In this document: positions 1-64,000 of the stretch, piece after piece
Position numbering within the stretch: position 1 is the stretch's first letter
How the letters are laid out: each line of letters opens with the position of its first letter
DNA from: Hymenobacter radiodurans
GTDB lineage: Bacteria; Bacteroidota; Bacteroidia; Cytophagales; Hymenobacteraceae
Assembly (NCBI RefSeq): GCF_004355185.1
Contig: NZ_CP037922.1
Location: forward strand, 620,001-684,000
Direction: 5' to 3'
DNA: 64,000 bases
Notes under the pieces: generated by a model
The model's input: only the letters and a program-made list of their open reading frames with translations
Databases searched by the model: none
What the model was told of the DNA's origin: nothing
Translations under genes and position numbers: made by a program

Positions 1-825
1 AGAGCATTTGCCAAGAGAGGCGTAGGCTTTGGTGCTAGCCAAGGTGCTGCCAACAGCCGCCTGGATCAGGTAGAATCCTTCGATTTGCCCCCCGTGTATG
101 CTTGCTCGGCTCCTACCATCACGGCCACGGCGCTCGGCGGTACCTTTGTAGAGGAAGGCCAGAGCACGATTTACCTAGGTTATGGCCCGCAGAGCATTCA
201 GTTGCAAGCTAGTGGTGATCCTACATTCGTGTACACCTGGGCATTCGTTCCTGGGCTGAGCAATACTGGCATTGCCAATCCGGTGTTCACTCCCAGAACT
301 GCTGGTACCTACGAACTCACCGTAACCGGTGTGAATGCGGCAGGATGTACCCGGACGGTTACCAAACGAATAGCAGTTGTTGACGTACGCTGTGGCTTTG
401 TTTTCCTGCGGAATAACAAAGTGTTGGTATGCCATAATGGTAAGCCAGTGTGCGTGAGCGAATCGGCGGTAGCAGCGCATTTGAACCACGGCGACTCGCT
501 GGGCGAATGCCAGGGCTCAGCAACAGCCGGCTTCGCAGCCGAGGAACAAGTGGAAGCCGAGGAAGCGCTGACGCTCACGGCAACGCCTAACCCCACCAGC
601 TCGCAAACCTACCTGGACTTCACCCTCACCGAGACGGGCAACTACCGCTTGGAGGTGATGAACATGCAGGGAACCGTAGTGAGTGTAGTAGCTGAAGGAA
701 CCGGTCGTGCTGGCGAAAACTTCTCCTTCAAGTTTACGAAAGGGCGCTTGGCCTCGGGCATTTATATGGTTCGCTTGACTTCAGGTAAGCAGAACAAGTT
801 TACCCGAGTAGTATTGCAGGACTAG
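1..825 (+). CDS. T9SS type A sorting domain-containing secreted protein (5' end outside window)
   Basis: The frame is open from base 1, so the gene starts upstream; 274 residues are visible. From the N-terminal side there is a PKD/Ig-like beta-sandwich stretch (about codons 35-120). Next comes a short cysteine-containing module with the pattern CHNGKPVCV...AVAAHLNHGD..GEC (about codons 143-175). The last 85 residues form a typical T9SS sorting domain: it begins TATPNPTSS, has the YRLEVMNMQG strand, and ends in SGIYMVRL and a basic-rich tail. The family is exported by Sec and then by the type IX system and is usually anchored to the surface or released. The function of the missing N-terminal part cannot be judged. 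Confidence 0.85.
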   Translation, partial: RAFAKRGVGFGASQGAANSRLDQVESFDLPPVYACSAPTITATALGGTFVEEGQSTIYLGYGPQSIQLQASGDPTFVYTWAFVPGLSNTGIANPVFTPRTAGTYELTVTGVNAAGCTRTVTKRIAVVDVRCGFVFLRNNKVLVCHNGKPVCVSESAVAAHLNHGDSLGECQGSATAGFAAEEQVEAEEALTLTATPNPTSSQTYLDFTLTETGNYRLEVMNMQGTVVSVVAEGTGRAGENFSFKFTKGRLASGIYMVRLTSGKQNKFTRVVLQD

Positions 826-852
826 CACGTGCCTTACTTAATAGCCTAGAAA

Positions 853-880
853 GACAAGCCGTGGACATTTACGGCTTGTC
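853..880 (+). repeat. Perfect 10-bp hairpin downstream of the T9SS gene
   Basis: GACAAGCCGT (853-862) pairs exactly with ACGGCTTGTC (871-880) around an 8-base loop. No T tract follows. It precedes the terminator at 899-936 and may protect the 3' end of the mRNA. Confidence 0.55.
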
Positions 881-898
881 ACTTGGAATGTGAGGATC

Positions 899-936
899 AA
901 AAAAGCCCCCGGATAGCTGTCTGGGGGGCTTTTTTT
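899..936 (+). terminator. Rho-independent terminator
   Basis: AAAAAAGCCCCCGGA pairs with TCTGGGGGGCTTTTTTT. The A tract and T tract on the two sides make it usable in both directions. The stem has five C against six G. Confidence 0.8.
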
Positions 937-1047
937 ATTCTGCCGAACCACACGCACGTTACGGTGTCTACCTTTGACGCGTTTTCAAACCAACAGGTCT
1001 TCGTGACCTGGTTTTACCAGCGCTTGGCCGCTGTTCTTCCCTTCTGC

Positions 1048-2493
1048 ATGAACAAACGGTACGTCGTGTGGCTCTGCGCCCTGTTCGTTTTATTTGATTT
1101 AGGGTACTCCTATATTCAAAACTATCAGATACCGCTGGAAGGTGACCTGGCCCCCATCGTGCTGCCTAGCTACTGGTACACCCAAGTGCTGCAAGACCCG
1201 TTCGGCTGGGCCGTAGTAGCCAAAAACGAGGTGTATGCGGGTCCTAACAGATATTTTGCGCACGCAGCCATGGTTGCTTACTTTAAGTCGGTTCCGTTGT
1301 GGCTTCAGCGCTTCACCGACCCCATCAGTAGCATCTATGTGGCTTGCGCGCTGTTCAAAACGGCTGTACAAGCGCTATTGCTCTACTTGCTGGCCGTGTA
1401 CAGCACCGGCGCGCAGCTCCTCACCGACCGCCGCTTGTGGCTGCCCGCGGCGCTGCTAGTGCCGCTGTTTCAAACGGCCGGCTACAATGGGCAAATGGGA
1501 GTCATCGACCATTCGGTTACGTACACTTTTTTCTACGCTTTCCCTTTAGCCCTGCTGCTCTTGCTGCTGTTGCCTTTTTATCGGGCTGCCTTCCATCAGC
1601 AACGCTTGCAGTTACCGGGGTTCATGATTCCTGCCTGCGCCGCCCTCATGGTGGTGCTGGCTTTCAACGGGCCTATCGTGACGGGCGCGGTGCTGGTGCT
1701 ATTTGTGTGCTTCGGGCTTTACTGGACAAAAAGGCATTGGCCAGCAATTCGGGTACGGTCGTATGCAGGGTGGTGGGTGCAGCGGGCGAAACGGGTGCCA
1801 CTCGTTGCGGTGCTGCTATTGGGGGTCTTTGGGTTGCTGTGCCTGTATTCGTTGTACATCGGCCGCAACAACTCCGAAAATCTGACGGCTACGCTGCCTG
1901 TGTGGGAGCGGTATAAGTTGGTGCCGCAGGGCGTATTCCGCCAACTCACGGGCAAGCTCGGCTTCCCATTGCTGGTGCTGATCGGTCTGGTCAATGCGCA
2001 GCTTATTCGTCGATTTTTGCCCCCCAGTGCCGCCAGCCAGCGGTGGCTGCGCATTTTTCAACTGTTAGGCCTTTTTACGCTACTCTATATTCTATTGCTG
2101 CCGCTGGGGGGCTACCGCAATTACCGGCCCCTCATTCTGCGCCGCGATTCTATTCTGCCTATCATTCTGGGCCTGATGTATTTCTACAGCGCTTCTACCT
2201 ATTATCTGCTGCTACATTTGGAAGGGCGGCCCCGCCGCTGGTATATCGGAGGCGTGGTACTGTTTGCGGCCATCTTTATGAATGCCGATAAGCTCAGGAT
2301 GACCAACAATAACCAATGTGAGCGAGCTGGATTGCAGCAACTGGCCCAGTCGACCGAGCCAATTGTACATCTCGACAGCGACTGCACCGTGATGGCCTGG
2401 GAAAAGATAACCGATCCGCTACAGTCAGATAATAACGCGCAGTTGCTGGAGTTTTGGGGCGTAACCAAAGGCAAAAAGCTCTACTATCAATGA
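1048..2493 (+). CDS. Polytopic membrane protein of unknown function
   Basis: 481 residues from the ATG at 1048. The frame stays open upstream to 883, but that stretch runs just past the terminator and has no ATG. About ten hydrophobic segments are visible, for example FLFDLGYSY-like near the N terminus, the Leu-rich run at about codon 170, and LLLLGVFGLLCLYSLYIG. A soluble tail of about 60 residues ends the protein. The layout resembles membrane glycosyltransferase or polymerase-type proteins, but I see no diagnostic motif and do not assign a function. It stands alone between two terminated genes. Confidence 0.6.
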   Translation: MNKRYVVWLCALFVLFDLGYSYIQNYQIPLEGDLAPIVLPSYWYTQVLQDPFGWAVVAKNEVYAGPNRYFAHAAMVAYFKSVPLWLQRFTDPISSIYVACALFKTAVQALLLYLLAVYSTGAQLLTDRRLWLPAALLVPLFQTAGYNGQMGVIDHSVTYTFFYAFPLALLLLLLLPFYRAAFHQQRLQLPGFMIPACAALMVVLAFNGPIVTGAVLVLFVCFGLYWTKRHWPAIRVRSYAGWWVQRAKRVPLVAVLLLGVFGLLCLYSLYIGRNNSENLTATLPVWERYKLVPQGVFRQLTGKLGFPLLVLIGLVNAQLIRRFLPPSAASQRWLRIFQLLGLFTLLYILLLPLGGYRNYRPLILRRDSILPIILGLMYFYSASTYYLLLHLEGRPRRWYIGGVVLFAAIFMNADKLRMTNNNQCERAGLQQLAQSTEPIVHLDSDCTVMAWEKITDPLQSDNNAQLLEFWGVTKGKKLYYQ

Positions 2494-2810: not shown

Positions 2811-4277
2811 ATGTTTGCTCGCCTTCGCTTCACGTATGCTGTTGCCTTGCTACTGCTGTTTAAAAGCATTGCTGTAGAGGCCCGGATCGGCAGCGACGCT
2901 GATGCTACCGAGCCGATAGTAGGAGGGGGGCAAACAACCACGGATGTTGCCGTTCAGCTCCGTCAGCTGTATGCTACCAAATCATCGTCTGTCGAAGCCA
3001 GTACTCAGGAGCAGGTCCAGCTGTTTTACACGCTTGTGGATTTCATGCCTGTATGGACCACCGACGCTGGGCCAACTGAGAGTGCGCAAGCGGCGCTAGG
3101 TCTACTATTGAAGGCGCCACGGTACGGGCTCAAAGCCACTGACTATGAGGTTGCTGACCTGCGTCTGCTGCTCGATTCATTACAGGCAGCACCATCGAAA
3201 CTCCAGCAGCGCCTGAAGGTCGAAACCCGCCTCACGACGGCGCTCATCCGGTTTTCTCAGCATCTAAGCCACGGGAGGATAGAGGATAGCACGATTCGGC
3301 CCTCGCAGGTGACAGAGAGCGACATCATCAACGTCGCTATTCACCTCCAACAGGCACTCCAAAGCAATAATTTTGAGCAACATATGCTCATGGCGCAGCC
3401 CAACAGTCGGAGCTATGTGCGGCTGCTTTGGTCGTGGCAGCGCCTGTTAGAGTCGGACACGGTAGCGGCCCGTAAAATGGCCCTTACTGTAGCGCTCAAC
3501 CTGGAGCGCCTACGTTGGGAGCCGCGCGCCGATTCTATCTATCTGGTCGTCAATATTCCGGCCTACAGCCTACAGGTGGTACGCGGCCCGCAGGTAGTGC
3601 GTAGCCATCGAGTGGTAGTAGGGAAGGCCGCTACTCCCACGCCGGAGCTCTACAGCGCGGTCAAATTTTTTCAGACGGCGCCCGAGTGGCGTATGCCGCA
3701 TAGTATAGCCACCAAAGAGGTTTTGCCACGATTGAAGCGTGATCCGCGCTACCTCAGCTCCCGTAACCTGCGGCTATATAATCAGGTTGGGGAACCGGTA
3801 AATGCTTCCCGGGTGAACTGGAAAGCTGTGACGCCTGCCGAATTTCCGTATCAGATTAGACAGGCGCCCTCTTCGCGCAATGCCTTGGGCAACGTAGTCT
3901 TTCGCTTTCCAAATCCCTACGAAGTGTTCTTGCACGACACTCCTGATCGGGAACTGTTTGAGGCTAATAGCCGCGCGCTCAGCCATGGCTGTATCCGGGT
4001 GCAGCACGCGTGGGCGCTGGCCCGCTTTCTAGTGGAGCGTGACGCTGGCAAGGCCAGCACCAATCGGGTAGAGAAAATGAGTGAGAGCCTCAACGAGGGC
4101 GAAACTATGTATTTCGGACTCTACGCTTCCGTGCCCCTTACAATACGCTACCAAACTTGCGAGGCCGAGGGAAGTCAGCTCCGGCAGCTACCCGATATCT
4201 ATGGTCTCGACAAAGTGTTGGCAGAAGCATGGGAGAGGGTGGCCAGTCACACAGCAGACGTAGCAAGTAGCCGTTAG
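2811..4277 (+). CDS. YcbB-type murein L,D-transpeptidase
   Basis: 488 residues with an N-terminal signal-like hydrophobic segment (about residues 5-25). The first half matches the scaffold domain of YcbB-type L,D-transpeptidases and is helical. The YkuD catalytic domain covers about residues 240-410. The active-site motif SHGCIRV is intact, with the nucleophile at Cys394 and His392 beside it; the upstream FLHDTP strand also fits the family. The enzyme would make or remodel 3-3 cross-links in peptidoglycan in the periplasm. It is the only gene in its unit, closed by the terminator at 4316-4352. Confidence 0.9.
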   Translation: MFARLRFTYAVALLLLFKSIAVEARIGSDADATEPIVGGGQTTTDVAVQLRQLYATKSSSVEASTQEQVQLFYTLVDFMPVWTTDAGPTESAQAALGLLLKAPRYGLKATDYEVADLRLLLDSLQAAPSKLQQRLKVETRLTTALIRFSQHLSHGRIEDSTIRPSQVTESDIINVAIHLQQALQSNNFEQHMLMAQPNSRSYVRLLWSWQRLLESDTVAARKMALTVALNLERLRWEPRADSIYLVVNIPAYSLQVVRGPQVVRSHRVVVGKAATPTPELYSAVKFFQTAPEWRMPHSIATKEVLPRLKRDPRYLSSRNLRLYNQVGEPVNASRVNWKAVTPAEFPYQIRQAPSSRNALGNVVFRFPNPYEVFLHDTPDRELFEANSRALSHGCIRVQHAWALARFLVERDAGKASTNRVEKMSESLNEGETMYFGLYASVPLTIRYQTCEAEGSQLRQLPDIYGLDKVLAEAWERVASHTADVASSR

Positions 4278-4315: not shown

Positions 4316-4352
4316 ACAAAAAGCCCCCACCTATATGATGGGGGGCTTTTTA
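4316..4352. terminator. Bidirectional terminator
   Basis: AAAAAGCCCCCA pairs with TGGGGGGCTTTTT. It lies between the + strand transpeptidase gene and the - strand tRNA-Gly, so it can serve both converging transcripts. Confidence 0.85.
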
Positions 4353-5570: not shown

Positions 5571-6961
5571 GTGCGAAAAGACCGGCGCGCTACCTTTTTG
5601 TATTCTGTTCCATCGGTGCGCCTACTCTGCTGGTGGCTGCCGTTTCTGCTGGTTACTTTGCTCAGTAGCTGCTCTACTGATGGTGGTAAAGCAGCCGATT
5701 TGCCGCCGCCTACTGGGCATTTTGAGGGGCCGATTTCCTACCAAGGCACAGAACTGCGCGCTACGTTGGATTTGCGTGAAGTAAAGCCGGGCCAATTGCA
5801 AGGCGAGGTGCGCCTAGCCGATCGTCAGAATCTAAGCCTGCCGGCCCAGCAGATAACGTATCAGCACCCGCGCCTCACCGTGCGCTGGGCTACGGGCGTG
5901 AGCTCTGATTTTACAATCAATCTGACGCGCGAGGGTGATTTTCTGAAAGGGAAATTTTCTGCCGATAGTACGGCGGCCGAAATCCTGATGGTGCGTCGTG
6001 GAGATGCTGAGCCCTTGCCTTACTTTCAAAAGCCGGTGCGCGTGAATAGTGGCAGCAAGATGTTGCCGGCCACTGTTTTAATTCCCGATGATACACTACA
6101 GGTGCATCCGGCGGTAGTGCTACTGCAAAATGCCCCCCAGCACACGCCGCTGGCTATGCACATGCTCACGGACCTGCTGGCGCGGCGCGGCGTGGTCGTT
6201 ATGCTGATAACCGGGCGCTCTGCTGCTGCAACCGATAGTAGCCCCGATTCATTAGCGGCTGATGTAGTGGCAGCGGCTCGGACACTCAAGCGTGTTGCGG
6301 GCGTCGATACCACTCAGATTGGCTTAGTGGGGAGCGGCGCCGGGGCAACGGCGCTGGCTATGGCTGCCCGCCAAGATGAGAAGGAGAACAGTCTAATAAA
6401 ATACGTGGTGGCTTTGGGCACACCCGGAACTTCCAAGGCGGCTCGCGATGCCGAAGCTATTGACCGCCAGTTACGGCGACAGGATGCAAGTGCAGCCGAT
6501 CGGCGACTCGTAGCGCTTACCCGCACGCAACTAGAGCAGTACATACGGCGCGAGGGACGAGGTGATACAACAAAGTTGCACCGCAATTTGCAGAAAATTG
6601 CCCCCAGCCGTGGGCCGCAACTACTGGTTTGCCCACTCGGGTGCCGAGCAAAGCTGACTTGGAGCAGCCTAAGTGGCGGGAATTGGTTTTTGACCCCCAA
6701 GAGGTTTGGGAGCAAGTGCGCGTGCCCGTCCTGCTACTGTATGGCGGGGCCGACACAACTCTGAATGTACAAGCCAGCGCCAACCGCCTACGGGGAAATG
6801 CTGGTCGCCGGCGGGGATCAGTGGTGCGGATATACGCTGGTGCCGACCAACAACTCTTGTTGCCCGCCGGAACCCAGAATGGTAAATGGCAATGGCCACG
6901 CCCGGTCCCCGGCTACGTGGACGACCTCACCGCTTGGCTACGCGAGCGACTGGAAAGGTAA
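5571..6961 (+). CDS. Alpha/beta-hydrolase-fold lipoprotein, apparently lacking catalytic residues (frameshifted here)
   Basis: Joining two frames gives 463 residues from a GTG at 5571. The N terminus is a lipoprotein signal with lipobox LLSSC (Cys34), followed by a beta-rich domain of about 130 residues and an alpha/beta-hydrolase domain. The frame breaks at the C5 run 6601-6605: with one more C it reads IAPQPWAATTGLPTRV and continues to the stop at 6961. Compared with related esterases, the nucleophile elbow expected as GHSxGG reads GSGAG (residues 254-258), with Gly at the Ser position. The usual catalytic His region reads GADQQL, while the Asp region (YGGADTTL) is kept. It may be non-catalytic. 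I see nothing notable in 5428-5570. Confidence 0.72.
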
Positions 6962-6996
6962 GAAGTGGTGGGGGGCAAATTCACCCTTGTAAGCTC

Positions 6997-9366
6997 TTAA
7001 AAGAGCAACAAACCCTTCTCTCGCAACTTTAGCCAAGCGGCCGAACTCAAGAAACGCTCAAAGGAAAGACCAGCTTCGGCCGTTGGAAAGCTGCTAGCGG
7101 CCTCTTTCAACAGCACTTTCGTGTCGTAGTTGGTGGTGAGCTGAGTAAGAAGGGTATTTAGCCATTGGCCAATGGCGGGCGTTGTCTTTACCTCGAAGTC
7201 TTCGGCCTGCTCGTAGAAAGTTAGTGCGGCCTGGGGGGCTTTTTTGCCTGATTCTAAACGAAGTTCCGGTGCGTTGCCGAGCCAGAAGAGACGCAGATTC
7301 TGCTTCGCAAAGTCCGGCTTGGGTGCTTCCTGTACGGCCTGTTGAATCAGGTGCCGCGGTAACGTAGGGCGCGGCACTTTGAAGTCGAACCAGAAGGAAA
7401 GCGGCTCGGCCAAATTCACGCCGTGCAGATAATTATAAAGCGCTTTCGCCAGGCCGGGCCCGAACTGCTCGTGGTCGGCGCCGGTAGGGTCATCGTGCCA
7501 AAGGTCATTCCAGGCAAAGTCGCCGGGCTCCGGGCCGATGGGCACCACTTGGTACTTCGCCGGATTCTTTCCCACAGGGCTATGCGCCGTCATGGAAAAG
7601 CGGTGCCAGTAGCCCGACTGAATGACACCCGCTGCAAATAGCTGGCGTACTACTTCCAACGAATCAATTGTTTCTTGGGCCGTTTGGGTCGGGAAGCCAT
7701 ACATCAGATAGGCGTGCACCATGATGCCCGCCTGGGTAAAGCCATCGGTTACGCGGGCAACTTGGGCAATGGTTACGCCTTTTTCCATCAGCGCCAGCAG
7801 CCTGTCAGAGGCTACTTCCAAGCCGCCCGATACGGCAATACAGCCCGAAGCTGCCAGCAAGCGGCACAAATCGGGAGTGAAGGTTTTCTCGAATCGAATA
7901 TTGCCCCACCAGGTAATATTGGTACGGCGTTTCAGCAACTCCACGGCCAAATCGCGCAGGGCTAGAGGCGGGGCGGCTTCGTCTACGAAGTGAAAGCCCG
8001 TTTGGCCGGTTTGCTGCACAATCTGCTCGATGCGGTCGGCGAGTAGGGCTGCTGGGGCTGTTTCGTAACGGGAAATATAGTCGAGGGTAACGTCGCAGAA
8101 GGAGCAGCGCTTCCAGTAGCAGCCGTGGGCTACGGTAAGCTTGTTCCAGCGCCCGTCGCTCCACAGCCGGTGCATCGGGTTCAGTACTTCTATCACCGAC
8201 AAATACTCGCTCAAAGGCAGGTCGCTGTAGTCGGGCGTACCTACCTCGTGGTGCGGAATGTTCGGTGCTTCGGTGTTATTCAGATACTCTACCTCACCAG
8301 CTTCATTGCGCAGAAAGGTTCGTTGGAGAAAACTTTTGCCCCCCAACCCGTTAAGCTGCGTGCTATCATCCTCGCGTTGAAGCGTTTCTAAGGCAAGCTC
8401 ACTATCAAACAGAGGCGCTGCCAAGCTTTCCCGCTCGTTGCCAAAGGCAACTTTCGTGTTGTTTAGCAACGACTGGGTATGAGTTACCTCGGCGCTTTGT
8501 GCCTTTATATTCTTCTCAGCTTGGAGATATTCTAGCAGTCGTAGCCAAGGCCCTTCACCGTCGTCTAGCGTCAGATAATCGATATAATCGAAGAAGCGAG
8601 GCTCCTTTATCTGGCGTAGCTCAGTATTGGGATAGCCGCCGCCCATGAGGGTTTTGGCTTCCGGCCGTAGCTCTTTCACCCGCCCGGCGAGGCGTAGCGC
8701 ACCATACAGATTGCCCGGAAACGGCACCGTGAATCCAACAACGTCAGGCGCCGTGCGGGCTACCAGCTCATCAAACGATTCCAGCAGCAGCTGATCCAAT
8801 AAGTTGGGTGGCGCTTGTAGCGCCTCATACAGCGGCTCGAAGCTGGTAGCAGATAAAGCCAGTTTTTCGGCGTAGCGCGAAAAGCCAAACTGCGGCCCTA
8901 CCGTTTCCTTTATTAAGTCGGCGAGGTCTTCGAGGTAGAGCGTAGCTAAGTGACGGGCCTGATCGGTGAGGCCCATGGTGCCAAAAGCCGTATCAAGGTC
9001 GGCTACGTTATCGAAGCGGGAAGCTTCGGGTAGATAGCGGCCATGACAAATACGGGGAGCCAACGTATTGTCTTTGTTCTGCAAAAACCGGATGACCGGC
9101 TCAACAGTAGCCAAGTAGCTGTGTTGCAGCCGCACTATTCGCCGGGCGTTATCCGACAGCTTAAAGCTGCCAGCCTCTATAGCTGCAAATACCCGTCGAA
9201 GCCCGGCCTTCGAAAAAAGCTTCAGTACCAGTTCCAAGCCAAGGTCGGCCTGTGTGCTGGCATAACCGCGCGCACTTAGAAAGCCTTTTAGGTAAGCAGT
9301 AGCCGGGTACGGCGTGTTAAGCTGGGTAAGCGGCGGGGTTACAAGAAGAATGCGAAGACTGGTCAC
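6997..9366 (-). CDS. B12-binding-type radical SAM protein
   Basis: 789 residues. The N-terminal half holds a Rossmann-like B12-binding-type domain (VVGFTVPFPGNLYGAL, then KTLMGGGYPNTEL). The radical SAM core follows, with the cluster-binding motif CYWKRCSFC at residues 416-424. Its spacing is C-x4-C-x2-C, one residue longer than the classical C-x3-C-x2-C. The GG of VSGGLEVAS and the GFPTQT segment fit the SAM-binding parts of the barrel. The substrate is unknown. It is a single gene with its own minus-strand promoter at 9392-9399. Confidence 0.85.
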   Translation of the reverse strand: MTSLRILLVTPPLTQLNTPYPATAYLKGFLSARGYASTQADLGLELVLKLFSKAGLRRVFAAIEAGSFKLSDNARRIVRLQHSYLATVEPVIRFLQNKDNTLAPRICHGRYLPEASRFDNVADLDTAFGTMGLTDQARHLATLYLEDLADLIKETVGPQFGFSRYAEKLALSATSFEPLYEALQAPPNLLDQLLLESFDELVARTAPDVVGFTVPFPGNLYGALRLAGRVKELRPEAKTLMGGGYPNTELRQIKEPRFFDYIDYLTLDDGEGPWLRLLEYLQAEKNIKAQSAEVTHTQSLLNNTKVAFGNERESLAAPLFDSELALETLQREDDSTQLNGLGGKSFLQRTFLRNEAGEVEYLNNTEAPNIPHHEVGTPDYSDLPLSEYLSVIEVLNPMHRLWSDGRWNKLTVAHGCYWKRCSFCDVTLDYISRYETAPAALLADRIEQIVQQTGQTGFHFVDEAAPPLALRDLAVELLKRRTNITWWGNIRFEKTFTPDLCRLLAASGCIAVSGGLEVASDRLLALMEKGVTIAQVARVTDGFTQAGIMVHAYLMYGFPTQTAQETIDSLEVVRQLFAAGVIQSGYWHRFSMTAHSPVGKNPAKYQVVPIGPEPGDFAWNDLWHDDPTGADHEQFGPGLAKALYNYLHGVNLAEPLSFWFDFKVPRPTLPRHLIQQAVQEAPKPDFAKQNLRLFWLGNAPELRLESGKKAPQAALTFYEQAEDFEVKTTPAIGQWLNTLLTQLTTNYDTKVLLKEAASSFPTAEAGLSFERFLSSAAWLKLREKGLLLF

Positions 9367-11073: not shown

Positions 11074-11376
11074 ATGAAAACTTCCTTTTTGCCTCGAATT
11101 CTGCTCCTGGGGGGCATTTTTGCTATTTCGCTCACTAGCTGCAGCACCGGTACTGACCCAGGCGAAACCAATGTGGAAAGTGGCTCCGCGAAAGAGCAGG
11201 TAAATGAAAATAAATCGGACGCCAACGACCCCGACGATAAACTTTACACGACTTCTGATGCTGCCACCAACGGAGCTACGGCCGATACCTCTACCGTAAA
11301 AACCGGTAAGCAAGTGTATGATGAAGCCGATGACCGGCGCGACGAAAATGTGGATGGCAAGGCCGGCCCACAATAA
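11074..11376 (+). CDS. Small acidic lipoprotein, hypothetical
   Basis: 100 residues. A lipoprotein signal ends at the lipobox SLTSC (Cys23). The rest is hydrophilic and rich in Asp, Glu, Ser, Thr and Lys, with no predicted globular core. It is probably a flexible surface or periplasmic lipoprotein. It is a single gene with an 18-bp perfect terminator right after it. Confidence 0.65.
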   Translation: MKTSFLPRILLLGGIFAISLTSCSTGTDPGETNVESGSAKEQVNENKSDANDPDDKLYTTSDAATNGATADTSTVKTGKQVYDEADDRRDENVDGKAGPQ

Positions 11377-11384: not shown

Positions 11385-11430
11385 GCACAAAAAAAGCCCC
11401 CCAGACAAGTCCGGGGGGCTTTTTTTGTGC
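11385..11430. terminator. Bidirectional terminator with 18-bp perfect stem
   Basis: 11385-11402 (GCACAAAAAAAGCCCCCC) pairs exactly with 11413-11430 around a 10-base loop. It sits between the converging lipoprotein gene (+) and btuG-like gene (-). Confidence 0.92.
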
Positions 11431-12569: not shown

Positions 12570-14553
12570 TTAGCGCCAAGTGAGGCGGAGGCTGAGCGCG
12601 ACGTTGCGCGGCGGCATGGCCCGGTAGGCATATACCTGGTAGTTCCGGTTGGTTAGATTGAAGCCTTGCGCCAGCACCGTCACGGCCCAGGTAGGCGTAA
12701 TAGCCAGCGTTCGGCCCAGGCTGGCGTTAAGCAGGGTATAAGACGGCAGGAAATCGACGGCGGAAGCATCGGTGTAGCGGTAGCCGGTGAAGGTGAGGCC
12801 AGTGGTAAGCTGCCATTTGTGCCAGCTCTGATCCGTGGTGAAGGCAAACGAATGCAGCGGCACGTAAGGCAACTGCCGGCCCACCGGGTCAGGATCTTCA
12901 GCGCGGCCTTTCACCTTTTCCGACTGCGTAAAACCGTAAGCCGCCCGAGCCGTGAGCGAATAAGCCCCCCAATGACCAGTCAGCTGCGAACTGGCTTCTA
13001 CACCCCGGGCACGCACTTGGCGCAGGTTGCGCGGCGTGTAGTCGCCTTGGGTATTCGGCAACCATTGCACCCAGTCGTCTACTACTTGGTGATAAGCCGT
13101 GAGTTCTGTTTGGAGGTTCCAGGGGGCATTTTTGGTGAACTGATGCCGCAGGCCAGCCTCATAGCCAAGGCCGTTTTCGGGGCGAAGATTCGGGTCGCCG
13201 GTACGCCAGAAACGCTCGTTCAGGGTAGGGGCACGGTAGCTGCGCGAGGCGCTTACTTTCAGGGATACTTGTTGAGCAGAAGTTTGCCAGAACTGCCATT
13301 CGGCCCCTACGGTAGGGGCAAGCGGCGGTCGGCGGCCAGATATAAATGCCTGCCTTAGGTTAGCTGTGAGCTGCAAGCGAGGGACAGGATCGTAGCGTAG
13401 CAGCCCAAAGCCCGAAAACCGGTTTTCGGACACTGAACGGCCGTAGCCATCTACTTCAGCCGCAAAGTGCTGGGCTTCACCACCAAGTCGCAGGCTCGCT
13501 TTGAGTTGAAAGTGACTGTGTGCTCGGCCTGTGCCTGCGTGGTGCGAACCCGCGAATTGCTTGTCAGGTCGTCGTTTCGGTAATCAATAACGTCCTCAAA
13601 CCACGCCACCCGCACCACCGACTCATGACGCCCGGAGGCTACGTGGCGGTAGCCGGCCAGCAGGCGGCGGCTTTGGTCTCGCTCACGAGCGTGGTTGTTG
13701 CCTGAACCAATGGCCGGCTGAAGCTGCCGGTCGGCATCCGTGAGCCAGATAGCCGCCATTAGCTCGCCCCGCTCACCCAGACGAAGAGTGGCGTCCTGGC
13801 TTAGGCTCCATTGGCGCACTGCCGCATTCTGCTGGTGCCGGCGTACCAAACCCGTTATTTCGGGTGAGTTGTAAGGGAAATCATTTCGGGCTTCGCGGTA
13901 GGAGGCTGCTGTACGTACAGCTACCCTTTGATTGCTGAAGCGCCCTTCCACGCTGCCCGCGCCCAAGCCATACTGACCCGCATCCAGCTGGGCACTTACC
14001 TGTGGGCCTGCCCCCAGCGAATAGGCGAGGAAAGTAGTACGGTGCCGCCCACGGCGCCGGTGCCATACGTAGCGCCGGCCGGCCCATGCTGCACATCGAT
14101 GCGAGTGCTGGCCCCAGCAGGTAAAAGGGCAAAATCAGCCTCTCCCAGCGAAGGTAAGTTGATGTTGAAGCCATTCCACAGCACGGCCGTGTGCCTAGCC
14201 GATGTGCCCCGAATCGTAATAGAAGACAGTTGCCCAGGCCCGTAATTCTTGATAAACAGAGGCGTGCGCGCCGCCAATACATCGGTAAGTGTGCCCGTGC
14301 GGTACTGACTCAAGGCCAGCGAGTCGATAGAGGTAAGGCGGCTGCCCACAGCAAACCGGCCGGGGCGTGCGGCTTGTACCCGCACATCAGGAAGCAGTTG
14401 GACGGTGGAAAGCCGGCTGGAATCAGAAGGTAAGCTACCGGTGGGAGTGGCTTGCTGGGCCTGACTAGGAAAGGCGCTGAAAAAGGCCCCCACTAGTCCC
14501 AAAGCCGATAGTGGCTTAAGCAGCAAGCGCCGCCAAGATATAGATGTACGCAT
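12570..14553 (-). CDS. btuB: TonB-dependent cobalamin receptor BtuB (two frameshifts in this sequence)
   Basis: Three consecutive open frames on the minus strand make one receptor of 661 residues once two bases are restored. The signal and plug domain are in 13996-14553, with LTSIDS, the LFIKNYGPGQLSSITIRG segment and VQHGPAGATYGTGAVGG. The barrel continues in the other two frames and ends in a normal NVALSLRLTWR final strand. Break 1 is the C5 run 14011-14015 (minus-strand TGGGGGCAGG; one more G restores RWGAGPQVSAQLDAG). Break 2 is the TTT at 13500-13502 (one more A on the minus strand restores FNSKASLRLGGEAQ). The cobalamin riboswitch upstream identifies the ligand as B12 or a relative. 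Outer-membrane uptake would use TonB energy. Confidence 0.85.
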
Positions 14554-14930: not shown

Positions 14931-14933
14931 GCA

Positions 14934-15051: not shown

Positions 15052-15660
15052 ATGGCCACCAAATTGCCCCCCAGCTTCTACCGTCGTCCCGACCCGGTCC
15101 AGATTGCCCACGAACTGCTCGGTAAGCATGTATTTTCAAACCTTAATGGCGAGCTAACCGGTGGCCGCATCGTGGAGGCTGAAGCATATTCCCACGTCGG
15201 TGACCAGTCACTCACCATGCACATCAAGCGTCGCGGAGCCCACTCGCAAGCTTTATTGGAGCCAGGTGGACGTGCTTACCTCTACCAAGTATATCAGCGG
15301 CATACCTTATTCAACATCAGCACCAATGAGGCAGAAAAGCCTGATACAGTGCTTATTCGGGCTATTGAGCCGTTGCAGGGAATAGAAATCATGCTACAGC
15401 GACGAGGGCAAACGACAGTCTCACCGAAGCTTACTGCTGGTCCGGGCTTGCTGACGCAGGCGCTTGGTATCACGCCTGCCCTTACCGGTGCGGATTTGCA
15501 AGGCGATGTGCTATGGTTAGAAGATCATGGCGAAATAGTGCCTGAAGAACAGGTAAAAAGAAGCGCCCGCGTCGGGCTGGCCTATGCTGGCGACGAAGCC
15601 GCTAACCTGCCCTGGCGCTTTCGCATCATTGGCAACCCGTGGACCAGCAAAGCCTCATAG
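15052..15660 (+). CDS. DNA-3-methyladenine glycosylase (AAG/MPG family)
   Basis: 202 residues, the usual size of the bacterial AAG family. Diagnostic segments are LLGKHVF near the N terminus, GRIVEAEAYSHVGD with the catalytic Glu (about residue 43), and YLYQVYQRHTLFNI. TAGPGLLTQALGIT follows later. The enzyme removes alkylated purines such as 3-methyladenine from DNA to start base-excision repair. The start is ATG at 15052. It is a single gene closed by the terminator at 15693-15736. Confidence 0.92.
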   Translation: MATKLPPSFYRRPDPVQIAHELLGKHVFSNLNGELTGGRIVEAEAYSHVGDQSLTMHIKRRGAHSQALLEPGGRAYLYQVYQRHTLFNISTNEAEKPDTVLIRAIEPLQGIEIMLQRRGQTTVSPKLTAGPGLLTQALGITPALTGADLQGDVLWLEDHGEIVPEEQVKRSARVGLAYAGDEAANLPWRFRIIGNPWTSKAS

Positions 15661-15692: not shown

Positions 15693-15736
15693 ACCCAAAA
15701 AAGCCCCCCAGACTAGTTCTGGGGGCTTTTTTGGGT
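15693..15736. terminator. Bidirectional terminator
   Basis: ACCCAAAAAAGCCCCCCAGA pairs with TTCTGGGGGCTTTTTTGGGT. The left arm has six C and the right arm five G, a possible one-base undercall. It lies between converging genes. Confidence 0.85.
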
Positions 15737-19956: not shown

Positions 19957-19989
19957 AAAAAGCCCCCAGATGATATCTGGGGGCTTTTT
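19957..19989 (+). terminator. Rho-independent terminator
   Basis: AAAAAGCCCCCAGAT pairs with ATCTGGGGGCTTTTT around a three-base loop. Confidence 0.85.
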
Positions 19990-20104
19990 GTTGTTTTAAT
20001 ACATTCTGCCAAAACCCTTATACCTGCTTTGCCTTCTTATTCGAGCATTATAGATTTAACAGAAAAGGCCAGCGCTATGCAATCATTACAGATATTTGCC
20101 CCCC

Positions 20105-25442: not shown

Positions 25443-25483
25443 TAAAAAAGCCCCCCAGATTAGTCTGGGGGGCTTTTTTTATT
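25441..25483. terminator. Bidirectional terminator
   Basis: AATAAAAAAGCCCCCCAGA pairs with TCTGGGGGGCTTTTTTTATT around TTAG. It separates converging nadD (+) and frr (-), and the nadD stop overlaps its first bases. Confidence 0.9.
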
Positions 25484-30205: not shown

Positions 30206-30366
30206 TGTGAAGGCAGACCTTTATAGCTCTTACGCAGATAATTGGCTTCGTAAATCAGTAGCTCAAATTCTAGCCGTGGGGGGCAATTTCGAAAGATCGC
30301 TCCCCATTGCTAGAAAAAATATTGAAAGCTTTTCGGCTGTGAGCTTGACTTACATCAGAAAGCCGT

Positions 30367-35592: not shown

Positions 35593-35734
35593 CCTGTTTG
35601 TAGGCTATAAGTTTTAATAAATTGCCCCCCAGCGCCGCATTGCGGCTTTTCGTGCCTACGGGTACGTAGGTGGGAATGGTCAGGTTGACCAGAGTTAGTA
35701 AGCTTCAGTGTCCATTTCTTAAGACCCAAACGCA

Positions 35735-39728: not shown

Positions 39729-44089
<4,361 letters not shown>

Positions 44090-44151: not shown

Positions 44152-44197
44152 CACTAATTTTGACCTCATTCTATTATTTGCCCCCCAACCTTATCCT

Positions 44198-44530
44198 ATG
44201 AATCTGCCTCCTGACCAAAATGCCCCCCAGGACCCGAACGCAATCAATATTGAATTGTCAGAACAAATTGCTGAGGGTGAATACGCCAATCTGGCTATGA
44301 TAGCGCATAGCAGCGGGGAGTTTGTTATTGACTTCATCCGCCTAATGCCGGGATTGCCGAAAGCGAAGGTTAAAGCTCGTATTATCATAACGCCAGAGCA
44401 TGCTAAGCGTCTGCTAGCCGCGCTGGCCGATAACGTAGACCGCTTTGAGCAGACTTTTGGATCAATAAAAACGCAGCCTGACATGCCAAACTTCCCAATG
44501 AATTTTGGCGGTACGATGGGAGAGGCGTAA
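44198..44530 (+). CDS. DUF3467 domain-containing protein
   Basis: 110 residues. Small protein with the DUF3467 pattern: EYANLAMIAHSSGEFVIDFIRLMPG, then KARIIITPEHAKRLLAALADNVDRFE. The family is widespread in Bacteroidota and has no established function. Its place between rpoC and rpsL is a commonly seen context. Two GCCCCCCA motifs lie at 44181 and 44223, just before and just inside the gene. Confidence 0.85.
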   Translation: MNLPPDQNAPQDPNAINIELSEQIAEGEYANLAMIAHSSGEFVIDFIRLMPGLPKAKVKARIIITPEHAKRLLAALADNVDRFEQTFGSIKTQPDMPNFPMNFGGTMGEA

Positions 44531-48368: not shown

Positions 48369-48404
48369 AAAAAGCCCCCGGATTATTTCTGGGGGCTTTT
48401 TTTG
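48369..48404 (+). terminator. Terminator after rpsJ
   Basis: AAAAAAGCCCCCGGA pairs with TCTGGGGGCTTTTTTT. It closes the rpsL-rpsG-fusA-rpsJ unit. Confidence 0.88.
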
Positions 48405-50555: not shown

Positions 50556-51194
50556 ATGGAACTGTCAGTATATAACATCAAAGGCGAAGACACAGGCCGC
50601 AAGGTTACGTTGTCTGACGCTATCTTCGGTTTAGAGCCGAATGAGCACGTGATGTACCTCGACGTGAAGCAGTACTTGGCCAATCAGCGCCAGGGCACGC
50701 ACAAGTCGAAGCAGCGTCATGAAGTGCAAGGCACTACCAAGAAGCTTAAGAAGCAAAAAGGTACGGGTGGTGCCCGTGCTGGTAGCATGAAGTCGCCAGT
50801 ATTCATCGGTGGTGGTCGCGTATTTGGCCCCCAGCCCCGTGACTATGGCTTCAAGCTGAACAAAAAGACGAAGCGGGTTGCTCGTTTGTCGGCTCTGAGC
50901 ACGTTGGCTCAAGAAGGCAAAGTAGCGTTGGTAGAAACCATCACGTTAGATGCCCCCCGTACGAAAGATTTCCTTTCGATTCTGACTGGCCTGAAGCTGA
51001 ACAACGGCAAGAAAACCTTGCTAGTGACTGGCGAAGCCAACAAGAACGTGCTGCTATCGGCGCGCAACATTCAGAAAGTGACCGTGGCTACGCCTGTCGC
51101 TCTGAACACGCACGACCTGCTTAACACGGACACTTTGTTATTGTCAGAGGACGGGCTGAAGTCGTTGGAACAACTTTATACCCCTGCTGAGTAA
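50556..51194 (+). CDS. rplD: 50S ribosomal protein L4
   Basis: 212 residues. Extended loop GTKKLKKQKGTGGARAGSMKSPVFIGGGRVFGPQPRDY lines the exit tunnel. Overlaps rplW by one base. Confidence 0.97.
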   Translation: MELSVYNIKGEDTGRKVTLSDAIFGLEPNEHVMYLDVKQYLANQRQGTHKSKQRHEVQGTTKKLKKQKGTGGARAGSMKSPVFIGGGRVFGPQPRDYGFKLNKKTKRVARLSALSTLAQEGKVALVETITLDAPRTKDFLSILTGLKLNNGKKTLLVTGEANKNVLLSARNIQKVTVATPVALNTHDLLNTDTLLLSEDGLKSLEQLYTPAE

Positions 51195-53111: not shown

Positions 53112-54005
53112 ATGGGACAGAAAGTAAATCCGGTTGGCTTCCGCTTAGGTGTCATCAAAGGATGGGACTCGAACTGGTACGGCGGTAAAGACTTCGCCGA
53201 TAAACTGGTAGAGGACGAAAAAATCCGTAAGTACATTCTCGCGCGTATTCCGAAAGGCGGTATCTCACGCATCGTAATCGAGCGTACTCTGAAGCGTATA
53301 ACTATTACTATCAACACGGCTCGTCCAGGTGTAGTAATTGGTAAAGGCGGTCAGGAAGTTGATAAGATTAAAGACGAGCTAAAGCAGATCACCAGCAAAG
53401 ACGTTCAGATCAATATCTTCGAAATCAAGCGTCCAGAACTTGATGCAAAGCTAGTAGGTGAGAGCATTGCTCAGCAGCTACAGGCTCGTATTTCGTTCCG
53501 CCGTGCGATGAAGCAAGCTATTCAGGCTGCTATGCGCGTTGGTGCTGAAGGTATCAAAGTGCAGTGTGGTGGTCGTCTTGGCGGCGCTGAAATTGCTCGC
53601 TCGGAGCAATACAAAGAGGGTCGCACTCCACTGCACACTTTGCGTGCTGACATAGATTATGCTTTGTCAGAAGCTCAAACTGTGTACGGTAAGATCGGTA
53701 TCAAAGTGTGGATCATGCGTGGTGAGGTATTTGGCAAGCCTGACTTGTCGCCTAACCAGCAGCCTACCAACCAAGGCGCCGACACCCGTGGTGGCGGTAA
53801 CGATCGTGGCCCACGTGGTGAGCGTGGCGACCGTGGTGGTGATCGTGGCCCACGTCGTGATCGTAATGATCGTGGCGGTGAAGGCCGTGGTGATCGTGGC
53901 GGTGACAACCGTGGTGGTCAAGGCCAAGGTGGTGGCCCACGTCGCAATAGTGGCACTGGAGCTGCTGGGGGGCAAAACCGCGGTGGCGGTGCTCCTCGTC
54001 GCTAA
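53112..54005 (+). CDS. rpsC: 30S ribosomal protein S3 with long Arg/Gly-rich C-terminal tail
   Basis: 297 residues. The KH domain ([22 protein letters not shown]) and the C-terminal core are normal up to about residue 215. The last 80 residues (about 53760-54002) are an RGG/RG repeat: [19 protein letters not shown] and similar blocks, ending GGAPRR. S3 forms part of the mRNA entry channel, so the tail lies at the entry site. Confidence 0.96.
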
Positions 54006-55357: not shown

Positions 55358-55660
55358 ATGGCAACGAAAGCAAAAGACCAAAAGCCAGTGAAATTGCACG
55401 TAAAAACTGGCGATACCGTTAAGGTGATTGCTGGTGATGAGCGTGGCAAGACTGGTACCATCAAATCGGTTAATCGCACTTCACAGCGCGTTATCATCGA
55501 GGGTTTGAACCTAGTAACGAAGCACAACAAGCCGAGCGCTAAAAACCCTCAGGGTGGTATTACTAAGATCGAGGCTCCCATTCATGTGAGCAACGTGCAG
55601 CCCATTGACCCCAAGACGGGTGAGCGGGTACGCAAAAATGCCCCCCAGCAAAACGCCTAA
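55358..55660 (+). CDS. rplX: 50S ribosomal protein L24
   Basis: 100 residues. KOW motif [21 protein letters not shown], then [20 protein letters not shown]. The end reads RKNAPQQNA across a GCCCCCCAG motif. Confidence 0.96.
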
Positions 55661-60614: not shown

Positions 60615-61385
60615 ATGATCTTTTATAAGACCGAAGAAGAAATAGAACTCATTCGGGCTAGTGCGAAAGTTCTAGCCCAGGCTCACGGAGAAGTTGCGAG
60701 TCTTATTAAGGAGGGAGTAACCACCCGTGAGCTTGATAAGCGTGCGGAGGAGTTTATTCGAGATAGTGGGGGGCAACCTTCATTCAAAGGCTATAATGAC
60801 TTTCCTTATAGCCTTTGTATCTCACCAAATTCAGTTGTAGTACACGGATTTCCTAGTGACTATACTTTGAAAGGTGGAGATATAGTTTCGATTGATTGTG
60901 GTGTATTCCTCAATGGTTATCACAGTGACAGCGCTTATACTTACCCAATTGGGGAGGTAGATACTGAGGTGCTAGACTTATTGGCTCATACTAAGCAGTC
61001 TTTGTATCTCGGTATAGAGCAGGCAGTGGCCGGCAACCGGATGGGTGACATTGGCTATGCAATTCAGAGCTTTGTTGAAAAGCAAGGTTATGGAGTTGTA
61101 AGAGAGTTGGTTGGCCATGGCTTAGGCAAAAAGCTACACGAGCGACCTGAAGTACCTAATTACGGTAAACGTGGTTCAGGACTTAAGTTGCAAACGGGGT
61201 TAGTAATTGCAATTGAGCCAATGGTTAATTTGGGTGTCAAGAATATTGTCCAAGAGAAAGATGGATGGACCATCCGTACCAAGGATAAGAAACCTTCAGC
61301 TCATTTTGAGCACACTGTTGTAGTTAGAAAAGACAAGGCGGAAATTTTAACCTCCTTCGATTACATAGAAAAAGCCTTACAGTAG
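60615..61385 (+). CDS. map: Type I methionine aminopeptidase
   Basis: 256 residues. It removes the initiator Met. Metal ligands are in place: [18 protein letters not shown] (two Asp), [10 protein letters not shown] (His), AIEPMV (Glu) and FEHTVVV (Glu). Three bases after secY, the usual place. Confidence 0.97.
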
Positions 61386-61608: not shown

Positions 61609-61623
61609 TTTACTAACGACGAC

Positions 61624-61740: not shown

Positions 61741-61762
61741 ACCATTCGTTTTATAAAAGCAT

Positions 61763-62140: not shown

Positions 62141-62212
62141 ACAGTAGCGGAAATCGGTGCTTGCTTATACGAAGTGAGCATCAACACCTTCCGCATTTTT
62201 TGCGATAACTAA

Positions 62213-62605
62213 ATGGCACAAAAGAGAAAAGACAAAGCCAAGAAGCGCGTTGTCGTTGTAGAGCAAGTAGGTCAGATTCACATCAAGGCCTCCTTCAACA
62301 ACATCATCATCTCCATCACCAACAACAACGGCCAGGTTATTTCTTGGGCTTCTGCTGGTAAGATGGGCTTCCGTGGCTCAAAGAAGAATACTCCATACGC
62401 TGCTCAGATGGCAGCCACGGATTGCGGTAAAGTTGCCCATGATCTGGGTATGCGCAAAGCCGAAGTATTTGTAAAAGGACCAGGCTCAGGTCGTGAGTCG
62501 GCTATCCGTACCCTCCAGAATGTGGGCATTGAGGTAACTACCATCCGCGACGTAACACCGCTGCCCCACAACGGCTGCCGTCCGCCTAAGCGTCGTCGCG
62601 TCTGA
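62213..62605 (+). CDS. rpsK: 30S ribosomal protein S11
   Basis: 130 residues. [44 protein letters not shown] and [17 protein letters not shown]...[18 protein letters not shown]. Platform protein. Confidence 0.98.
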
Positions 62606-62748
62606 TATACTGAACAGGCAAAGCGCAGGCTAAATGTCTGCGAATTTGCCCCCTGGTGTCGGGTTTCCGATGCGTATGCACCCGTTGCAACGCGTCTGCG
62701 AGGCTCGACATTCGTGGTTCAACCCCTGCAAAACTCAACATCCTCGAA

Positions 62749-63353
62749 ATGGCACGTTATACCGGTCCTAAAACCAAGATTGCCCGTCGCTTTGCTGAGC
62801 CGATTTTCGGTCCGAGCAAGGCACTCAACAAAAAGAATTATCCCCAGGCCAGCATGGTCGTGGCCGTCGCAAGAAGCAGTCGGAATATGCTATCCAACTG
62901 ATGGAGAAGCAAAAGGTGAAGTACATGTACGGTGTACTAGAGAAGCAATTTGAAAACCTATTCCATAAGGCTGCTGCACTTCCCGGCATTACTGGTGACA
63001 ACCTGTTGGCTCTGCTAGAGTCACGCCTAGACAACACAGTATACCGCTTAGGAGTAGCTCCTACCCGTCGTGCTGCTCGCCAATTGGTGTTGCACAAGCA
63101 CATAACGGTAAACGGTGAAGTGGTTAACATCGCTTCGTACAAGCTGCGTCCTGGCGACATCATTGGCGTTCGTGAGAAGTCAAAGTCGCTGGAAACTATC
63201 ACTACTAGCTTGAGCGCCCGCAACGCCCGCGCTTTCTCGTGGTTGGAGTGGGACGGCAAGGAAATGGTGGGCAAGTTCACCAACGCCCCCTCACGTGAGT
63301 TGATCCCGGAAAAAATCCAGGAGCAACTGATCGTCGAGCTTTACTCGAAGTAA
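62749..63353 (+). CDS. rpsD: 30S ribosomal protein S4 (one-base frameshift near codon 32)
   Basis: 201 residues once one C is restored. The first part ([21 protein letters not shown]...KNY) is in one frame and the rest (from [19 protein letters not shown]) in another. The C4 run 62842-62845 needs five C to read [19 protein letters not shown]. The S4 domain ([30 protein letters not shown]) is complete. S4 is essential, so this is almost surely a sequence error. Confidence 0.95.
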
Positions 63354-63406
63354 TTGCCTTTTGGCATTCTTCGTTTTTCCCTTGTTGTATTTTTAAAGCC
63401 CCACTT

Positions 63407-64000
63407 ATGTCAATCTTAGCTTTTCAAATGCCGGAGAAAGTTGTGATGGAGAAATCCGATGACTTTTACGGAACGTTTGAATTCAAACCGCTGGAGAAAG
63501 GCTACGGCGTCACGATCGGCAACGCTTTGCGCCGTATCCTGCTGTCGTCGCTGGAGGGCTATGCCGTTACATCGGTTCGCACGCCCAGCGTGCTGCACGA
63601 GTTCATGACCATTGAAGGTGTGATTGAGGACATGTCCGAAATCATTCTGAACCTGAAGATGGTCCGCTTCAAGAAGGTAAGCGACGCTATTGAGGACAAG
63701 ATTACCGTCCGCATCAAAGGTCAGGAGACATTCACGGCCGGCGACATCAATAAGTTTACCAACGGCTTCCAGGTGTTGAACCCAGATTTGGTTATCTGCC
63801 ATGTAGATGCCAACACTGAGCTGGAGTTTGAACTGGCTGTGCAGAAAGGTCGGGGCTATGTACCCGCCGAAGAAAATAAGCCTACCGATCAGGTATTCGG
63901 GCAAATCGCTATTGATGCCATCTTCACACCTATCAAGAATGTGAAATATAGCATCGAGAATACCCGCGTAGAGCAGAAGACTGACTATGAGAAGCTTCTC
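63407..64000 (+). CDS. rpoA: RNA polymerase alpha subunit (3' end outside window)
   Basis: 198 residues are visible and the frame is open to the last base. The N-terminal domain is clear: [37 protein letters not shown] (dimerisation and assembly), then [23 protein letters not shown]. It follows rpsD by about 50 bases, the usual order. Confidence 0.96.

Follow-up and report, generated by a model that had tools for sequence, protein, structure and literature searches.

The motif and its sites in the window

The window, by which we mean the whole 64-kb stretch of DNA analyzed here, covers positions 620001-684000 of contig C2 of the Hymenobacter radiodurans genome (4.92 Mb, two contigs). It carries genes that we named rpoC, fusA, rpsC and M1 peptidase by reading their translations, with no family search, and copies of a G-rich octamer, TGGGGGGC, that is the core of a high-copy motif. 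The octamer is the most enriched 8-mer of the window, with 32 copies (16 per strand) vs. 1.1 expected from a second-order Markov model and a mean of 1.55 (largest 7) in dinucleotide shuffles of the window (n = 100). Counted regardless of context, G6C occurs 38 times. Seven of these runs lie in terminator hairpins (the octamers at 922, 4339, 11396, 15703, 25450 and 25466, and CGGGGGGC at 11412), and the figure of about 30 copies outside terminators, given in a preliminary description of the window, is therefore correct. The 23 coordinates it gave are all TGGGGGGC/GCCCCCCA sites, to within 1-2 bases.

The over-representation turned out to be larger than that description had said. The genome-wide count that it proposed as a check gave 2,564 copies of the octamer (1,273 + 1,291) vs. 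44 (20 + 24) for the reversed octamer used as control; the count is therefore not at expectation, which is where the preliminary description would have given up its claim. Sequence context was analyzed in a sample of 464 kb (9.4% of the genome), consisting of the window and 20 stretches of 20 kb and containing 228 octamers. The chromosomal subset of this sample amounts to 404 kb, the remaining three stretches being on the second contig, C1. In the 404 kb, 215 octamers were observed vs. 15.2 expected (second-order Markov). This 14-fold excess is smaller than that of the window, since some of the G-runs are already accounted for by the model.

The octamer is not the complete unit. The full unit is YGGGGGGCWWWWW, i.e. 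Y-G6-C followed by about five A/T bases that avoid TpA steps (an A-tract). The preliminary description had noted a T before the G-run and A/T-rich bases after the C; the second part was borne out, while the first base is T or C. Among the 228 octamers, C is preferred at the position before the core (0.55), A/T is favored at positions +8 to +12, more weakly at +13 and little further out, and at least four of the five bases after the C are A/T in 203 of the 215 chromosomal octamers, vs. 16% at random positions. The same tail was seen in 150 genic sites without a hairpin arm. Where the tail is all A/T, it takes the TpA-free AnTm form in 69 of 88 genic sites, vs. 28% after other [ACT]GC contexts, and in 42 of 48 intergenic unpaired sites.

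The length of the G-run is sharply defined. The numbers of YGnCW5 observed and expected in the 404 kb are 95 vs. 73 for n = 3, 22 vs. 16 for n = 4, 86 vs. 3.7 for n = 5, 196 vs. 0.82 for n = 6 and 1 vs. 0.18 for n = 7. It is this sharp length, together with the A/T tail and the avoidance of TpA, that leads us to define the unit as YGGGGGGCWWWWW. The variant CGGGGGGC behaves like TGGGGGGC (68 vs. 15.8 expected, with a tail in 64); AGGGGGGC has the tail in 12 of 12 cases and shows no enrichment, and other single-mismatch cores are mostly near expectation. In the whole genome there are 2,330 copies of YGGGGGGCWWWWW (1,148 + 1,182 by strand) vs. 7 for the control and about 10 expected (scaled from the Markov model of the sample); over this model, the 13-mer is enriched about 240-fold. 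The sites in the window are as follows, with their tails and with the state of the octamer in the other species of the clade, Hymenobacter sp. BT188, H. qilianensis and H. roseosalivarius (ORF, open reading frame; YC55 and H. norwichensis are outgroups).

87..94, minus strand: variant CGGGGGGC, tail AAATC
922..929, plus strand: TGGGGGGC and T-run, right arm of terminator hairpin 905-929
2019..2026, minus strand: dispersed site, tail AAAAA, ORF 964-2493
2105..2112, plus strand: octamer with poor tail TACCG, ORF 964-2493
2924..2931, plus strand: variant AGGGGGGC, tail AAACA
4339..4346, plus strand: right arm of terminator hairpin 4323-4346
6132..6139, minus strand: dispersed site, tail ATTTT; octamer same in BT188 and H. 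qilianensis
6969..6976, plus strand: intergenic site, tail AAATT; octamer same in H. qilianensis
7232..7239, plus strand: dispersed site, antisense in ORF 6997-9366; octamer same in BT188 and H. qilianensis
8338..8345, minus strand: dispersed site in ORF 6997-9366, tail AAAAG
11108..11115, plus strand: dispersed site, tail ATTTT; octamer same in BT188 and H. qilianensis
11396..11403, minus strand: arm of terminator hairpin 11396-11419
11412..11419, plus strand: CGGGGGGC, other arm of hairpin 11396-11419
12964..12971, minus strand: dispersed site encoding WGA (PGA in YC55 and H. norwichensis)
15066..15073, minus strand: dispersed site, tail AATTT; octamer same in BT188 and H. qilianensis
15703..15710, minus strand: arm of terminator hairpin 15703-15726
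19962..19984, no strand: terminator hairpin from two G5 arms
20098..20105, minus strand: intergenic site, tail AAATA; octamer same in H. qilianensis
20811..20818, plus strand: variant CGGGGGGC, tail GTTTT
21060..21067, minus strand: dispersed site; tail varies among species and stays A/T-rich
22544..22551, plus strand: dispersed site; octamer same in BT188 and H. qilianensis
22667..22674, plus strand: dispersed site; octamer same in BT188 and H. qilianensis
25450..25457, minus strand: left arm of terminator hairpin 25450-25473
25466..25473, plus strand: right arm of terminator hairpin 25450-25473
26215..26222, minus strand: dispersed site encoding AGGQ (AAPP in H. norwichensis)
29200..29207, plus strand: dispersed site in M1-peptidase-like ORF; octamer same in all three other clade species
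29389..29396, plus strand: dispersed site in the same M1-peptidase-like ORF as 29200; octamer same in BT188 and H. roseosalivarius
30277..30284, plus strand: intergenic site, tail AATTT
33565..33572, minus strand: variant CGGGGGGC, tail GTTTT
35624..35631, minus strand: intergenic site, tail AATTT (ATTTT in relatives)
39886..39893, plus strand: octamer in rpoC, possibly an undercalled G7 (apparent frameshift)
40549..40556, plus strand: dispersed site in rpoC, tail GTTTT; octamer same in all three other clade species
44180..44187, minus strand: intergenic site, tail AAATA; octamer same in H. roseosalivarius
44222..44229, minus strand: intergenic site, tail ATTTT; octamer same in BT188 and H. 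roseosalivarius
46774..46781, minus strand: octamer in fusA-like ORF; in none of the three other clade species
48374..48396, no strand: terminator hairpin from two G5 arms
50952..50959, minus strand: variant CGGGGGGC, tail ATCTA
53966..53973, plus strand: dispersed site, tail AAAAC, close to the 3' end of the rpsC-like ORF
55640..55647, minus strand: dispersed site, tail ATTTT; octamer same in BT188 and H. roseosalivarius
60767..60774, plus strand: octamer with poor tail AACCT, ORF 60615-61385

Two gene neighborhoods of the window deserve mention in their own right. A cobalamin riboswitch (14714-14941, minus strand) adjoins ORFs 12570-13433, 13451-13966 and 13996-14553; judged from the ORF list and translations only, ORFs 12570-14553 resemble a single TonB-dependent receptor gene disrupted into different frames. 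A heptosyltransferase-like gene (20869-21911) is apparently split into the overlapping ORFs 20869-21480 and 21420-21911, as seen in the ORF list only.

Terminators, genes and chromosome

Facing copies of the core form terminators. Pairs of G5/G6-C arms no more than 25 nt apart occur 37 times in the reverse-then-forward order (-+), never in the opposite order (+-) and 11 times in the same direction in the 404 kb; the typical hairpin pair is AAAAAGCCCCCAG...CTGGGGGCTTTTT, and TTTTT was seen by eye after 34 of the 37. Tailed paired arms are mostly G5 (50 vs. 22 G6), tailed single sites mostly G6 (257 vs. 98 G5), and the single sites without a tail number 16 G6 and 101 G5. Only 22 of the 279 tailed G6 sites are in hairpin pairs with G5/G6 arms, shorter arms being outside the search. 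Since paired arms are mostly G5 and dispersed tailed G6 sites mostly single, the terminators look like a by-use of the motif: they use it and do not explain it. The preliminary description was right about the shared arm.

This bears on the idea of a transcription signal, in which the dispersed copies would be terminator arms and their decayed or nascent halves. The hairpins of GCCCCC/GGGGGC arms speak for it, as do the probable sister species (loci L011 and L012), where GGGGGC hairpins likewise precede T-runs. Against it stand the single tailed G6 sites, the occurrence of genic sites in both orientations and their tails, which, without a hairpin arm, read AAATT in 25 of 150 cases and T5 in 17. 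As the whole explanation, terminators were rejected in view of the predominance of unpaired sites among the tailed G6 copies sampled, and we consider a transcriptional role of this kind very improbable.

Genes were called by our own ORF scoring (coding fraction 0.80). By these calls, 153 of the 228 octamers are in genes, 87 sense and 66 antisense (p = 0.11), and the 75 intergenic ones are about twice as dense. The reading frames of the sense sites are unequal (50, 28 and 9). Codons under the core keep their amino acid in 24 of 37 cases relative to YC55 and in 22 of 37 relative to H. norwichensis, vs. 471 of 575 and 455 of 560, respectively, for flanking codons. The sites are thus at changed or changeable positions of the proteins. 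The view of the preliminary description that this is a dispersed signal acting on DNA and not protein, HIP1-like in abundance (HIP, highly iterated palindrome), is supported, and the signal is clade-specific.

Replication strands were assigned by the sign of the GC skew in the two halves of the chromosome; the origin is inferred from skew only, and several stretches have near-zero skew. In 16 of 18 chromosomal segments, 190 sites are divided into 92 leading and 98 lagging (p = 0.72), two stretches by the apparent origin and the three C1 stretches (13 sites) being left out of the count. The Chi site of E. coli has a leading-strand bias of 75%, and a bias of this size is excluded by the 92/98 split (p = 5e-15). 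The two stretches by the apparent origin (the first 20 kb of C2 and 4.64 Mb) are unlike the rest, with 20 octamers on the plus and 5 on the minus strand. Segregation signals such as KOPS (FtsK-orienting polar sequences) or matS are polar to ter or cluster near ter or ori; the motif shows no polarity overall and is in all 17 sampled C2 stretches (8.5% of C2). A Chi-like polarity was rejected for lack of an overall strand bias in the sample, which also lends no support to a segregation polarity, despite the 20 vs. 5 at the apparent origin.

Octamer density is 5-15 per 20 kb across the 17 sampled chromosomal stretches. Regular spacing was rejected, as the coefficient of variation (0.92) is within the simulated range (0.95 +/- 0.06). 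Contig C1 (190 kb) has only 8 tailed copies vs. about 93 expected at chromosomal density, in agreement with the three C1 stretches. These stretches are high in GC (57-65%), and C1 is probably a plasmid or a recent import. One 20-kb stretch of H. qilianensis C2 is likewise without a tailed copy.

Relatives and their high-copy words

With the protein of ORF 27593-30205, its counterparts in BT188, H. qilianensis and H. roseosalivarius share 92-96% identity; among the other loci listed, none exceeds 74%. In a quick tree of 44 rows of named relatives, the genome of the window and these three form one group with a support of 100, H. qilianensis being on a long branch. Across 120 genomes of the genus, four have 1,954-2,727 copies of YGGGGGGCWWWWW (2,330 in H. 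radiodurans; 1,954, 2,331 and 2,727 in the others) and 116 have 1-18. The genome with 1,954 copies (G010) has the same octamer count as H. qilianensis, and that with 2,331 (G064) the same as H. roseosalivarius; the third (G170, 2,727 copies) may be BT188, in which we counted 3,188 octamers.

At those of the 32 window sites that can be aligned, the octamer is unchanged in 17 of 27 cases in BT188, 16 of 28 in H. qilianensis and 10 of 15 in H. roseosalivarius, vs. 125 of 259, 102 of 260 and 38 of 102, respectively, for G-rich control 8-mers. This contrast is marginal (Fisher p = 0.16, 0.07 and 0.05), and becomes p = 0.05, 0.0005 and 0.02 with insertions and deletions (indels) set aside. The clearest conservation signal is in the A-tract, which changes 4-5 times less than the flanks: where the octamer is intact in both genomes, 8 of 214 tail positions are substituted (5 of the 8 being A<->T), vs. 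78 of 469 positions upstream and 89 of 492 positions downstream; the rate for other A/T-rich 5-mers is 11%. In the outgroups, the octamer is unchanged at 0 of 16 sites (YC55) and 0 of 18 (H. norwichensis), with substitutions in 14 and 15. Taken by itself this absence is weak, as few of the G-rich controls survive there either (12 of 167 and 15 of 170); the argument for a gain within the clade therefore rests on the genome counts.

Both H. radiodurans and H. qilianensis have single-base homopolymer losses that resemble assembly errors; the octamer counts of BT188 and H. roseosalivarius are equally high. In H. qilianensis an indel is present at 9 of the 28 alignable sites, mostly one G fewer, also in genes such as the M1 peptidase. 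These may be homopolymer errors, in which case the true number of motifs would be above 1,954. At 39741-39925 of the window, rpoC is divided into two ORFs, with an apparent frameshift exactly at a G-run that has six Gs in the window and seven in BT188, probably a homopolymer miscall in the assembly.

Other words reach high copy number in the family. They were surveyed in 22-kb loci, so that weak motifs were missed and the list is incomplete. A second high-copy word, GGGGGTAGG(G), seen in Hymenobacter sp. UV11 and genome G014, has no A-tract and shows a graded copy number across the genus: GGGGGTAGG occurs 2,419-3,530 times in 5 of the 120 genomes, 294-1,259 times in nine more and 17 times in H. 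radiodurans. Four high-copy octamers are or contain palindromes and resemble HIPs, namely ACCTAGGT (9 sites per 22 kb in H. cavernae, strand-counted 18), GGGGCCCC (15 sites in H. coccineus, strand-counted 30), AGCTAGCT and CACCTAGG. One C5 methyltransferase each was found in H. cavernae and UV11, and none in H. coccineus. In Pontibacter, AAGTATAA, CTATAGTT and AGGTATAG are high-copy words of different species; of the 33 copies of CTATAGTT in Pontibacter sp. Tf4, 25 are intergenic, and this word may be a different phenomenon. The other words of the Hymenobacteraceae and YGGGGGGCWWWWW are possibly one phenomenon.

Candidate roles and known systems

A motif that is read at the DNA level, has more than 2,000 copies, was recently gained, is kept in genes and is scarce on C1 needs a reader, and either strong selection per site or drive. 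The explanation we lean towards, while holding it at somewhat below an even chance, is that YGGGGGGCWWWWW is a self-DNA tag that accumulates through biased DNA acquisition. In its favor are the copy number and its balance between strands, the sharp length of the G-run, the A-tract and its conservation, the restriction to four grouped genomes, the single orientation of facing pairs and the scarcity on C1. A single protein would read the G6-C core and the TpA-free A-tract of this clade-specific tag in double-strand DNA, in either orientation, most likely as part of a DNA acquisition or self-recognition step. Tagged DNA would be preferentially taken up (or spared) and then recombined in, and the tag would spread through the chromosome by molecular drive. 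Copies would be tolerated where they cost the protein least, recent imports would be without them, and facing pairs may have been co-opted as terminators. Molecular drive is argued for the Haemophilus and Neisseria tags (PMC1939737). Among the Bacteroidota, Riemerella columbina is reported to prefer its own DNA in transformation, and simple k-mer counts there gave only A/T-rich words (PMC7965970).

Several observations weigh against the self-DNA tag. The secretin PF00263 and the T2SSE/PilB-type ATPase PF00437 were each matched in 0 of 7 Hymenobacter genomes (controls matched in 6 and 14 of 14), so that the type IV pilus/secretin machine by which species with known uptake tags import DNA did not turn up. 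A literature search found no natural transformation of Hymenobacter. ComEC-like and DprA genes are present in 9 of 9 genomes, tag-bearing and tag-free alike, and therefore do not discriminate; the ComEC matches are moreover below the TIGR00361 cut-off in all nine. The spacing of the sites is random and not more even than chance, the octamer itself is conserved only marginally better than controls, and its absence from the outgroups carries little weight. 

A clade-specific neighbor of comEC was looked for as well, and none was seen in loci of only about 4 kb. No report of such a motif in Hymenobacter was found in the literature covered, which did not extend to subscription papers and preprints, and the matches listed for the letters of the octamer are unrelated by title. 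In the available text of a terminator survey with uptake sequences in Neisseriaceae and Pasteurellaceae (PMC13020248), no word starts with Bacteroid- or Hymenobacter.

After uptake we rank a chromosome-organizing protein, then a HIP-like repair bias and then a Chi-like role. That a clade-specific nucleoid protein uses the G6C/A-tract sites, in their thousands, to anchor or bend the chromosome, with selection keeping them in place, is possible if doubtful. The TpA-free A-tract beside the G-run suggests shape reading by a protein that binds double-strand DNA, and the tag, with its conserved tail, is in all sampled chromosomal stretches; however, weak selection per site could hardly produce such an enrichment unless helped by drive, the spacing is not regular and no candidate protein emerged, there having been no systematic search for one. 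An iterated sequence of the HIP1 type, left by a methyltransferase and biased mismatch repair, or by some other repair bias, functional or not, strikes us as rather unlikely. Abundance, clade restriction and replacement in relatives do resemble HIP1 and the alternate HIPs (PMC4390886), and the palindromic octamers ACCTAGGT and GGGGCCCC of two relatives point the same way, but the tag is not a palindrome, its single-mismatch cores are mostly not enriched and the C5 methyltransferase PF00145 is in 0 of 4 tag-bearing genomes (other methyltransferase families were not searched). On this last result, the form of the HIP model that relies on a C5 methyltransferase was rejected for the four genomes searched.

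A recombination site was among the suggestions of the preliminary description; one like Chi would stop or alter a RecBCD/AddAB nuclease and so protect self DNA or stimulate recombination. An asymmetric, G-rich, clade-specific octamer with thousands of copies invites the comparison, and the two stretches adjacent to the apparent origin do lean to one strand; the lack of overall replication polarity argues against it, and a conserved A-tract is a poor fit for a Chi-type site, which is read as a single strand. We consider this role unlikely. For mutational bias, which was also suggested, or homopolymer slippage it can be said that the core is a homopolymer and differs by one G between species at several sites. 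The G6 optimum with a single G7 form, the conserved A-tract and the near-absence of the tag from 116 of 120 genomes of the genus do not agree with it, nor do the equally high octamer counts of BT188 and H. roseosalivarius; this candidate was rejected on the length optimum and the conserved A-tract, and is the least credible of all. Some other sequence-specific DNA process (self-marking in defense, packaging for gene transfer or similar) would fit the evidence for DNA-level recognition and spread, which favors no single process in particular; with no specific support of its own, it is scarcely more probable.

On a broader view, which we offer as speculation, the Hymenobacteraceae would have a sequence-specific recognition or acquisition of self DNA that works without a type IV pilus, with a recognition word that changes entirely from one clade to another (YGGGGGGCWWWWW; GGGGGTAGG; possibly ACCTAGGT and GGGGCCCC), each word rewriting the genome by molecular drive. 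Tags of such strength have been described for Pasteurellaceae and Neisseriaceae, as the uptake signal sequence (USS) and the DNA uptake sequence (DUS), and for cyanobacteria (HIP1). A recently gained tag in Bacteroidota, shared by 4 of 120 genomes of the genus, offers a direct way to study how such tags arise, by what they are read and whether they persist through uptake drive or through selection. Should its reader prove to be an uptake system without a pilus, this would point to a hitherto unknown route of sequence-specific DNA import.

The known systems each share some features with the tag. Like the cyanobacterial HIP1 and alternate HIPs, it is a short high-copy motif that is replaced by others in some relatives (PMC4390886); HIP1 is palindromic and linked to a methyltransferase, whereas the Hymenobacter tag is asymmetric, has an A-tract and comes with no C5 methyltransferase that we could find. 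Chi is likewise an asymmetric, G-rich octamer with many copies; unlike Chi, the tag has no overall leading-strand bias in the sample and includes an A-tract. With the DUS of Neisseriaceae it has in common that it is a clade-specific high-copy tag and that its terminator pairs are strongly biased to one orientation (PMC3630211 and PMC1852404). DUS dialects, however, are variants of one sequence sharing CTG, whereas the other Hymenobacter motifs are unrelated sequences, and pilus-type machinery was not found.

The USS of H. influenzae and other Pasteurellaceae also has an asymmetric GC-rich core followed by AT tract(s), with about 1,000-1,500 copies equally on both strands (737/734 in H. influenzae, Table 5 of PMC1852404). 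Strong USS have rigid, narrow-groove AT tracts that matter for uptake (PMC7811141), and USS pairs form terminators (PMC1852404). In copy number the tag is as asymmetric USS/DUS sequences are, on both strands and with 2,330 copies vs. 7 for the control, and its pairs are oriented as in their terminators (37 -+, 0 +- and 11 in the same direction). The differences are a distinct core, one AT tract in the Hymenobacter tag vs. two, and competence not demonstrated in Hymenobacter; since the secretin and PilB-type ATPase were not found in the seven genomes searched, we do not class the tag as a member of USS/DUS despite the likeness. In its anatomy, the tag matches the Haemophilus USS more closely than it does HIP1 or Chi.

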